Shown piece after piece: positions 33,003 through 36,861 of a stretch of DNA of 64,000 nt. A program made the translations under genes and the position numbers. The DNA is taken from positions 310,001-374,000 of the forward strand of contig NZ_CP034891.1 of assembly GCF_005083565.1 (NCBI RefSeq). Direction: 5' to 3'. This DNA comes from Buchnera aphidicola (Acyrthosiphon lactucae). GTDB taxonomy: Bacteria > Pseudomonadota > Gammaproteobacteria > Enterobacterales > Enterobacteriaceae. Under the pieces are notes generated by a model, which had not been told where the DNA came from, searched no databases, and saw nothing but the letters and a program-made list of their open reading frames with translations. Numbering within the stretch: the first letter of the stretch is position 1; each line of letters begins with the position of its first letter.

Positions 33003-34679
33003 TCATTCAGTATTTTTAGCTGCTTTAAATGCTTCTATCATTACATTAGAAAAAGCATCATCATTTTTTTTGCTATTAGAGGAAACTGTTAAATCTTTTT
33101 TTTCATTTTCATTTATATTATGAATTGTAAGATAAATTATTCTATTTTTTCGATCAAAACTAGATAATTTAACAAAAATTTCATCATTAATTTTTAATTT
33201 ATTTATTATATCTTCAGAAGATGACTTAGAAATATCAGATAATTTTATAATACCTTCTAAATTTTCTGGTAATTTTACAATAATATTCTTTTTATCTAAA
33301 GCTTTAATTTTTCCAGTAATAACTATACCTTTTTTATGGTTTGTAATATAAATATTAAAAGGATCTTCTTCTAATTGTTTAATTCCTAAAGATATACGTT
33401 CTCTTTCAGCATCTACTTGAAGAACTACAGCAGAAATTTCATCGTTCTTTTTATATTTTTTAACTGCTTCCTCACCAGGTATTGTCCAAGAAATATCAGA
33501 TAAGTGTACTAATCCATCAATACCTCCATTTAAACCAATAAAAATACCAAAATCTGTAATAGATTTAATTTTTCCAATAACATGAATCCCTTTTTTATGA
33601 GTTTCAGAAAATTCTTTCCATGGATTCATTTTACATTGTTTTAAACCAAGAGAAATACGACGACGTTCTTCATCTATATCCAGAACCATTACTTCAACAA
33701 TATCATTAACAACAACTACTTTTGATGGATGAATATTTTTATTAGTCCAATCCATTTCAGAAACATGTACGAGACCTTCTACTCCTTCTTCAATTTCTAC
33801 AAAACAACCATAATCTGTTAAATTGGTTACACGGCCAGTTATTTTAGTTTCTTCTGGATAACGTTTGGAAATTTCTATCCATGGATCTTCACCTAGTTGT
33901 TTTAATCCTAATGAAACACGTGTTCTCTCTCTATCAAATTTTAAAATTTTAATATTAATTTCATCACCTACATTTACTATTTCACTAGGATGCTTAACTC
34001 GTTTCCAAGCCATGTCAGTAATATGTAAAAGACCGTCTACACCACCTAGATCTACAAAAGCTCCATAATCAGTTAAATTTTTCACAATACCTTTAACATG
34101 CATTCCTTCTTGTAAATTTTCTAATAATTGATTTCTTTCGGCACTATTTTCTGATTCAATTACAGCACGACGTGAAACAACAACGTTATTGCGCTTTTGG
34201 TCTAATTTAATAACTTTAAATTCTAATTCTTTTCCTTCAAGATGTATTGTTTCTCGAACTGGACGCACATCTACTAAAGAACCAGGTAAAAACGCACGTA
34301 TATCATTGAGTTCAACAGTAAAACCACCTTTAACTTTACCGTTAATAATTCCTATAACCGTTTCTGATTTTTCATGGGCTTGTTCTAATATTAACCATGC
34401 TTCATGACGCTTTGCTTTTTCACGAGATAAAAGTGTTTCCCCAAATCCATCTTCAATGGCATCTAAAGCAACATCAATTTGATCTCCTACATTAATATCT
34501 AAAAAACCTTGAGAATTTTTAAATTGTTCGGCAGGAATAGCAGATTCAGATTTAAGTCCCGCGTCAACTAAAACTATATCTTTTTCTATAGCGACAATGG
34601 TTCCGCGAATAATTGAACCTGGACGAGTTTTAATTTCTTTTAGTGATTCTTCAAATAATTGAGCAAAAGATTCATTCAT
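33003..34679 (-). CDS. rpsA: 30S ribosomal protein S1
   Basis: RNA-binding ribosomal protein of 558 residues (E. coli 557) with six S1 repeats at about residues 20-87, 105-171, 192-260, 277-347, 364-434 and 450-520. The repeats three to five show the typical [31 protein letters not shown] and [16 protein letters not shown] patterns. No strong Shine-Dalgarno sequence precedes the ATG, in keeping with the special leader of rpsA in enterobacteria. A good sigma-70 promoter lies 64 bases upstream, so rpsA need not depend on the broken cmk gene before it. Confidence 0.98.
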
Positions 34680-34806: not shown

Positions 34807-35462
34807 TTATATTTTTACTTTTTCAATAATATATTTCATTAAAGTCTTAATGACTTCTGATAAACTCATATACGTAGAATCTAATATTATAGCATTTTTT
34901 GCTATGCATAAAGGAGAAATTAAGCGATTTTGATCACGTGTATCACGATTTTGCATTTGTGTAAATAATTCTTTAAAATCAATATAACAAGCATTTTTTC
35001 TTAATTCTAACATTCTTCTATTTACACGCACTTCTAAATTGGCATTTAAAAAAAATTTAAGTATAGCATCTGGAAAAACTACAGTACCCATATCACGTCC
35101 TTCTGCTATTAAACCAGGTAAACATCTCATTAATCTTTGTTTTTTTAGTAAAATGTTTCTAACACGAGGATAAGTTGATAATTGAGAAGAAACATTACTA
35201 ATTATCTCTAAGTTTTGTAAATTATGAAAATAATCAATAGTTTTTTTTTAATTAACCAACAATCTAAATTTTTTAATAAGTTAACAATATTATTTTCAAC
35301 AATAGCAATATTATTATTTAATGCTAGAAAAGCTATCAATCGATAAATTTTTCCTGATTCTAACAATGACCAATTTAACTTTTTTGCTATTATTTTAGAA
35401 AGTGTGCTTTTACCGACACCACTAGGACCGTCAATAGTAATAACAGGAATTTTATTTATCAT
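34807..35462 (-). pseudogene. cmk: Cytidylate kinase gene with frame break at an A9 run
   Basis: CMP/dCMP kinase homolog split in two frames. The 5' part (from ATG at 35462) encodes the P-loop ITIDGPSGVGKST and LESGKIYRLIA. The frame is lost at nine A residues (35249-35241 on the minus strand) and the extended first frame ends at 35208. One extra A, or two fewer, joins it to a second frame that runs to 34807 without stop. This part encodes TYPRVRNILLKKQR, LPGLIAEGRDMGTVVFPDA and the RDTRDQNR lid. With one base added, the total is exactly 219 codons (E. coli 227 residues), and every conserved block is still present. This may be a true null allele, a gene rescued by polymerase slippage, or a sequencing error. 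It keeps its place between aroA and rpsA. Confidence 0.9.
35241..35249 (-). repeat. A9 run at the cmk frame break
   Basis: Nine consecutive A residues in the sense strand. The upstream frame reads it as three Lys codons; the homologous downstream frame needs ten (or seven). Confidence 0.9.
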
Positions 35463-35514: not shown

Positions 35515-36798
35515 TTAGATCTTACTAATAGATAAAAAATCTTTAAAATAAGATGGAAAAGTCTTGGAAATACAACTTGGATTAATTATATTTACACCTA
35601 TTCCTGATAAAGATACAAGTGAAAAACACATAGCCATACGATGATCATTATAAGTTTCAATATTAGAATATTTAAAAAAAACAGGAGGAGAAATTGATAA
35701 AAAATCTTTTCCTTCTTCAACTATAGCACCAATTTTTCTTAATTCTATAGTCATTGCAGCTAATCGATCAGTTTCTTTAACCCGCCAATTATATATATTC
35801 CTAATAATAGTAGTACCTTTAGCAAAAAGAGCTAAAATAGCAACCGTCATTGCTGTATCAGGAATATGATTCATATCTAAATCTATTGAGATTAATTTAT
35901 TACGAGTACAAGTAATAGAGTAGTCTTCCCAAACAATTATTGCTCCCATTTTTTCAAGAACATTTGCAAACTTTATATCACCTTGAATACTTTTTTTACC
36001 AACACCAGACACTTTAATTGAACCACCTTTAATAGCAGCAGCAGCTAAAAAATAAGAAGCTGAAGAAGCATCTCCTTCAATTATATAATTTCCTGGTGTT
36101 TTATATTTTTGTTGACCTTGTATATAGAATACATTATAAGAATCATGTTTAATATTTACTCCAAAACATTTTATTAAATTAAGTGTAATATCAATATAAG
36201 GTTTAGAAACTAAATTCCCTTTTATAAAAATAATAGTGTCTTTTAAAGCAAGCGGAGCGCTCATTAATAATGATGTTAAAAATTGACTAGAAATATTTCC
36301 ATTTAGAAAAATAGATCCTCCGATAAAACCACCTCTTGTACGTATTGGAGGATATCCTTTATTTTTTTCATATTCTATAGTAGCACCTCCTTTTCTTAAA
36401 GCGTCAACAAGATGCTTGATAGGTCTTTCATGCATTCTATCATCTCCACTTAATAAAACATTGTTATTCTGTAAAGATAATATAGAAAGAAGAGGTCGTA
36501 TAGCAGTACCTGCATTTCCTAAATAAAGCGAAATAGGTTTAGATAAATGAAAACATTGACCTATACCTTGAACATGACATGTTTTTTTATCATCAGATAA
36601 AGAATACTGAACACCTAATTTTTTTAAAGCATTTAGCATATATTGTGTATCATCACTATCTAATAAATTAGTTAAACATGTTGTTCCTTTAGCTATTGAA
36701 GAAAGTAATAAAACTCTATTTGAAATGCTTTTCGAACCTGGCAAATAGACAGTTCCATTAACATAAGATATTGGTTTTAAATTTAAAAAATCTTGCAT
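35515..36798 (-). CDS. aroA: 3-phosphoshikimate 1-carboxyvinyltransferase (EPSP synthase)
   Basis: Sixth step of the shikimate pathway, making EPSP for aromatic amino acids supplied to the aphid. Conserved segments are [41 protein letters not shown], the catalytic [26 protein letters not shown] and [10 protein letters not shown]. Length is 427, as in E. coli. Two ATG codons are adjacent (36801 and 36798); I chose the second for family length, but either is possible. It lies between serC and cmk, the ancestral order. Confidence 0.97.
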
Positions 36799-36861
36799 CA
36801 TGAATATACGCTCTATTTAATTAAAGTTAAAATAGTATATTAAAAATAAAATAAAGATAAT

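Follow-up and report, generated by a model that had tools for sequence, protein, structure and literature searches.

Within a 64,000-nucleotide stretch of Buchnera aphidicola (Acyrthosiphon lactucae) DNA (contig NZ_CP034891.1, positions 310,001 to 374,000; hereafter the window), the gene cmk, encoding (d)CMP kinase, sits between aroA and rpsA on the minus strand. The genome carrying the window amounts to 653,487 bases in three contigs; its leucine plasmid resembles most those of the Buchnera of Acyrthosiphon, Macrosiphum and kin (86-88% identity), which points to a macrosiphine host. On the plus strand, positions 35241-35249 read T9 (A9 in the sense direction), with G at 35240 and A at 35250, and it is within this run that the sense strand of cmk shifts frame by -1. 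An earlier note on this DNA had placed the break exactly in these nine A residues and had seen no other damage. Reading the run with its flanks bore out the first of these points, and the second also held, as no lesion other than the A9 break was found between the P-loop and the stop codon of cmk, and neither of the pieces matched by PF02224 contains an internal stop. The features of the locus are as follows.

34807..35462, minus strand: cmk, (d)CMP kinase gene, with a -1 frame at the A9 run; both pieces match cytidylate kinases
35208..35462, minus strand: cmk 5' reading frame, 84 amino acids, with the P-loop GPSGVGKS and a stop 30 nucleotides past the run
35241..35249, minus strand: A9 run, site of the frame change; the homologous run is A9-A11 in shifted relatives
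34807..35241, minus strand: cmk 3' reading frame (-1), 144 residues plus stop, with the core GRDMGTVVFPDA and the lid DTRDQNR
35131..35241, minus strand: 37 conserved codons of the cmk 3' frame, from the run to the first possible start (ATG at 35130)
33003..34679, minus strand: rpsA, intact, downstream neighbour of cmk and synteny anchor
35515..36801, minus strand: aroA, intact, upstream neighbour of cmk, synteny anchor and control gene

The two pieces match one family over successive parts of its profile: PF02224 (cut-off 26 bits) scores 62.1 bits with the 5' piece (profile positions 1-69) and 133.5 bits with the 3' piece (79-209). Against TIGR00017 (cut-off 135.55) the pieces taken singly fall below the cut-off, at 76.5 and 128.2, whereas an in-frame relative lies above it, at 211.4. 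Both pieces also align with solved cytidylate kinases (Cmk structures 1cke/1kdo), and the motifs of the family are present, namely the P-loop, the core GRDMG within GRDMGTVVFPDA and the lid arginines; the catalytic status of residues in these three elements is general background for the family. The in-frame homologue from the Buchnera of A. kondoi (G018) is 218 amino acids long, so that the 219 codons given in the earlier note count the stop as well.

The break is shared across Buchnera genomes

A profile search covered 61 genomes, 36 of them Buchnera including the window's own, and the aroA-rpsA interval was then read in all 36. Amongst these we take G009 to be the Buchnera of A. pisum (Tokyo), G018 that of A. 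kondoi, G035 that of Uroleucon ambrosiae, G015 that of Schizaphis graminum, G027 that of a Myzus persicae strain and G002 that of Microlophium carnosum. At the homologous A-run, cmk is in the -1 state in 12 of the 36 (G000, G001, G002, G003, G006, G009, G014, G016, G024, G027, G028, G029) and in the +1 state in one (G032). It is in frame in 15, with A11 at the site in four of these (G018, G031, G007, G010). One genome (G023) has a -1 break at a different A-run further upstream, and seven hold remnants or nothing (G012, G015, G019, G020, G022, G026, G035). The comparison with sister strains that the earlier note had proposed thus yields a fact missing from it: 12 of the 29 Buchnera that retain cmk have a -1 break at the same run.

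The exact sequence A9 followed by C is common to six of the -1 genomes (G000, G001, G002, G006, G009, G014), the pea-aphid Buchnera amongst them; the C is also present in G016, where a neighbouring change makes the run A10. Between the P-loop and the 3' stop, none of the 12 -1 genomes contains a stop or a second frame change. A search of genome contigs for relatives returned two distant ones only.

In addition, we observed that cmk has been lost in G020 and G035, sisters of the shifted G016, and in G015, G019 and G022, sisters of G023. The frame break may therefore precede loss of the gene.

Both pieces are under purifying selection

Separate codon models were fitted to 58 codons of the 5' piece, beginning at the P-loop, and to 125 codons of the 3' piece, in sets of shifted and of in-frame genomes, with aroA, serC and tpiA as controls. 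For the 3' piece, the ratio of nonsynonymous to synonymous rates (omega) was 0.243 in the six genomes with A9 and C, 0.268 in ten shifted macrosiphine genomes and 0.203 in G028, G029 and G032 (the last being +1), against 0.217 and 0.176 in in-frame sets of seven and six. The 5' piece gave 0.179, 0.178 and 0.136 in the shifted sets and 0.219 and 0.171 in the in-frame sets, and the control genes ranged from 0.10 to 0.22. Constraint past the break is near that of intact cmk, or at most somewhat weaker. This extends to the stretch just past the run, where omega was 0.237 in the six shifted genomes, 0.287 in the ten and 0.269 in the seven in-frame genomes.

A neutral simulation, with the gene dead since the root, was run 400 times; it used the midpoint-rooted tree of cmk from the six A9 and C genomes. 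It leads one to expect 21.5 stops in the 3' pieces and 16.4 in the 5' pieces, and 0 of the 400 runs were free of stops for either piece; the actual cmk pieces of these six genomes contain none. Selection is thus purifying on both sides of the break, as would be expected of a gene corrected by slippage. The relaxed constraint and the further stops or indels expected of a decaying pseudogene were not seen, apart from the slightly raised omega of the ten genomes. PMC3164680 notes that most of the DNA of inactivated elements disappears within the time spans separating these lineages.

Age of the break

In a tree built quickly from five proteins, with several open forks, G000, G001, G002, G006, G009, G014 and G018 form one clade with a support of 100 in the Shimodaira-Hasegawa-like approximate likelihood ratio test (SH-aLRT), the order of G014 and G018 being open. 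A two-state model over 27 tips places the -1 state at the base of this seven-genome clade with P 0.975, and across three placements and two root priors P ranges from 0.875 to 0.975. From this we infer that several macrosiphine Buchnera received the break from a common ancestor. A model that permits return to frame fits better (log-likelihood about -16.6 versus -18.4 to -20.5) and, because of this, the in-frame cmk genes of G018, G025 and G031 may be returns to frame. In our tree the split at the base of the clade separates the Buchnera of A. pisum from that of A. kondoi, and PMC3164680 dates the split of these two aphids to 27 +/- 8 million years (My).

Breaks at long A and T runs elsewhere in the genome

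To set the cmk break in context, conserved open reading frames (ORFs) were surveyed in six genomes, over about 400 kb each (380 kb of G029) and about 2.4 Mb in all, with the cmk region left out in all six. Of 40 break groups, 19 were dropped: 13 without a run of at least nine bases, four with an intact target ORF and two supported by a single query. An exception was made for four murF rows, which likewise came from a single query, G031; G009 as query also showed two of them (G000, G018). One reference ORF was partly masked, and the run counts come from conserved ORFs, outside which broken genes may partly lie, so that the rates are rough.

This analysis revealed that 20 of the 21 retained breaks at A or T runs of at least nine bases are -1, the remaining one being +1; the 21 fall at 14 loci. 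Without the four murF rows the count is 16 of 17. At its own run cmk shows a similar excess, with 12 of 13 shifted genomes at -1. The support filter excluded the breaks in fabD and rnfG, all of them -1, from the 21. Two +1 rows in G018 also stand outside: the first lies at A8, the second at T9 within an ORF that runs antisense to a longer gene. Among A-runs of at least ten bases, 18 of 320 were broken. At A9, a single break was retained amongst 1004 runs, one more (G000 at 117004) being doubtful and dropped. The A9 run of cmk is therefore ordinary in itself; it is a break at one that is rare. A-runs and T-runs of at least nine bases were broken in 19 of 1324 and 2 of 166 cases (Fisher P = 1.0).

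Several of the genes with breaks at long runs are cell-wall genes. Single breaks in at least one of the six Buchnera were seen in ddl, murF, murC, murA, rnhA and ispE, and a break at T10 in pyrD occurs in G018 and G009. A gene whose name, apbE, rests on a match below the family cut-off is broken at -1 in G009 and at +1 in G018. The gene rnfG (G000:C1:121806-122395, outside the window) is broken near its start in G000, G001, G009 and G018, by a -1 at A11 in G000, G018 and G009; of the 36 Buchnera, 26 others have one match to it and six have none. The himD/ihfB match contains a stop in G006 (57% of the protein covered) and in G028 (98%), and these may be further breaks. The gene fabD is essential in E. 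coli. It is present in all 36 Buchnera and split in ten of them, in eight at about residue 144-157 and in two at about 140-143; the break is a -1 at A10 in G000 (G000:C1:385382-386319, outside the window), G018 and G009. Lost by none and split in ten, fabD is hard to call a pseudogene. An ordinary decaying pseudogene, in contrast to cmk, is found at G000:C1:51800-52900, outside the window, which matches 334- and 381-codon ORFs of relatives and carries multiple breaks without long runs.

How the frame may be corrected

In the 13 genomes shifted at the run itself (G023 not included), the 3' frame offers no ATG, GTG or TTG for 16-50 residues past the run. A separately started fragment would omit this constrained stretch, and the frame must therefore change at or near the run: only then are the 37 conserved codons read. 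Separate translation of the two pieces into distinct proteins, or a role of its own for a fragment, is accordingly most improbable, even though public records hold C-terminal fragments of 128-150 amino acids under the names (d)CMP kinase, cytidylate kinase and hypothetical protein (from the A. pisum, Sitobion and Microlophium Buchnera, plus a contig as long as that of a Myzus persicae strain), since 16-50 codons with an omega of 0.237-0.287 precede the first possible start, whose position, moreover, differs among genomes.

Taken together, selection on both halves and the sharing of the break suggest that the cell reads across it and that the gene is not lost. The cmk break is a single-base change in an A-run of about nine or more bases, with no other lesion, as a slippage-corrected gene would show. 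The earlier note had judged rescue by slippage plausible, which fits the selection data; that the frame is corrected by slippage, and at the level of RNA rather than of the ribosome, is what we infer from the sequences. We think it probable that cmk is functional and has long been kept in the -1 frame, the correction coming most probably from an extra A that RNA polymerase adds. Under this reading, the break would go back to an ancestor shared by several macrosiphine Buchnera and would have persisted under purifying selection on both halves; RNA polymerase would most probably slip back on the A-run and add one A, so that messages with the corrected frame would give full-length CMP kinase and the remaining messages the 84-residue fragment. 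Slippage at the RNA level is favoured because transcription insertions in Buchnera are concentrated in homopolymers (151 of 157 insertions but 16 of 57 deletions, the latter given elsewhere in the paper as 15 of 70; PMC5574713) and because corrected transcripts make up 12-50% for other frameshifted symbiont genes (PMC5009743).

The bias towards -1 in the survey fits rescue by RNA insertion, although DNA deletion bias, undercalling and -1 slippage by the ribosome all predict the same sign. Of these, -1 ribosomal slippage on the A-run, with the message remaining A9, is unlikely. Read in frame 0, the run is AAA AAA AAA and so contains the slippery heptamer A AAA AAA; a -1 slip by the ribosome would give the same residues as an extra A and accounts equally well for the direction of the breaks, and the two T-runs with -1 breaks would be slippery for the ribosome too. 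However, the 81 nucleotides past the run fold no better than shuffled sequences (z 0.12, in the window's genome, one of 13), no purine-rich site is visible by eye just upstream of the run, and both the +1 state of G032 and the one +1 break of the survey would need another mechanism.

We hold it to be rather improbable that cmk is a pseudogene early in decay, broken recently and independently in each genome between long in-frame periods. The frequency of breaks at runs of A10 or more speaks for such a history, as does the loss of cmk from seven of the 36 genomes, and PMC3164680 reads most homopolymeric frameshifts as inactivations in single genomes while giving convergent cases such as murF. 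Against it, repeated recent breaks are hard to square with the rarity of breaks at A9, given that all six related A9 and C genomes are at -1, and with the freedom of the 12 -1 genomes from further stops and frame changes.

Undercalling of the run by one base in sequencing or assembly appears very unlikely. All shifts but one are shortenings, the direction expected of an undercall, and 454 reads are described as unreliable where poly-A is abundant (PMC3890641), but A9 with C recurs in six separate genomes, six more are at -1 with A10 or A11, four genomes are called in frame at A11, a cluster of C-terminal fragments (P0027, A. pisum APS) comprises five sequences on seven contigs, and low-coverage regions of the M. 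persicae symbiont were checked by Sanger sequencing (PMC3890641).

Several points nevertheless weigh against a long-lived cmk corrected at the RNA level. The gene is dispensable, being absent from seven of the 36 Buchnera, sisters of shifted genomes included, which does not support the earlier note's description of it as usually essential; PMC3603445, by its title, likewise reports that a Yersinia species can survive without it. With an omega of 0.268 for the 3' piece, the ten shifted genomes lie somewhat above the in-frame sets (0.176-0.217). The tree has open forks, and the ancestral inference assumes that frame changes are slow relative to speciation. Rescue in the RNA or at the ribosome was expected to favour A-runs over T-runs, unlike undercalling or DNA slippage, but the survey gave no such excess (Fisher P = 1.0) and so lends no support to an A-specific rescue; its -1 bias could be plain DNA deletion bias. 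The strongest counter-evidence comes from PMC5574713, which reports no frame-restoring event in the A. pisum Buchnera, although, as consulted here, it makes no mention of whether cmk was covered. Section 6 of that paper also gives an average rate of deletion that exceeds the rate of insertion, contrary to its own sentence. Finally, the E. coli polymerase is described as having relatively low indel bypass and as preferring poly(T) (PMC6260861).

Relation to known cases and implications

The break in cmk is a fresh instance of the known breaks attributed to poly(A) slippage, to which it adds a phylogenetic age estimate and a directional rule. As the earlier note had stated, such slippage is established in print for Buchnera and Blochmannia (Tamas et al. 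2008, via PMC5009743, PMC3164680 and PMC3890641), and those cases share with cmk a single-base break in a long A-run of an otherwise conserved gene in a low-GC insect symbiont. Here, by comparison, 36 genomes were examined, the same site and direction recur, an ancestral state was inferred and constraint was measured on both sides. Each Aphidinae genome is reported to carry 8-18 homopolymeric frameshifts, with the same gene (for example murF) hit in several lineages; the study scores these as inactivations, 42 of 69 in single genomes, allows that some may be regulatory and leaves cmk unnamed in its main text (PMC3164680). For the M. persicae Buchnera, gene models were merged across polyA indels and the genes judged functional, in an account that describes no phylogenetic test and that lists cmk amongst genes with a predicted deleterious substitution (PMC3890641). 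A search of one open library by title or abstract opening found no paper on the cmk break. In E. coli dnaX, the ribosome shifts by -1 at A AAA AAG, and the shift yields two products. Thermus dnaX, as described, relies on RNA slippage at a nine-base run and also uses the shift to make two products, whereas the only product known for cmk depends on the shifted frame.

More speculatively, and as an idea that we advance with considerable doubt, the -1 state at long A-runs may be a stable and reversible way for Buchnera to carry genes, one that can last tens of My and return to frame, in which almost only -1 is tolerated because the RNA polymerase of this lineage inserts far more than it deletes in such runs, and in which the frame would also set the amount of full-length enzyme made (as for cmk and fabD). 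If our reading of cmk is right, symbiont genes now counted as pseudogenes would be alive, counts of gene loss and metabolic models for Buchnera would be off, and the excess of -1 breaks (20 of 21) would link a pattern seen across the genome to a polymerase property that has been measured.
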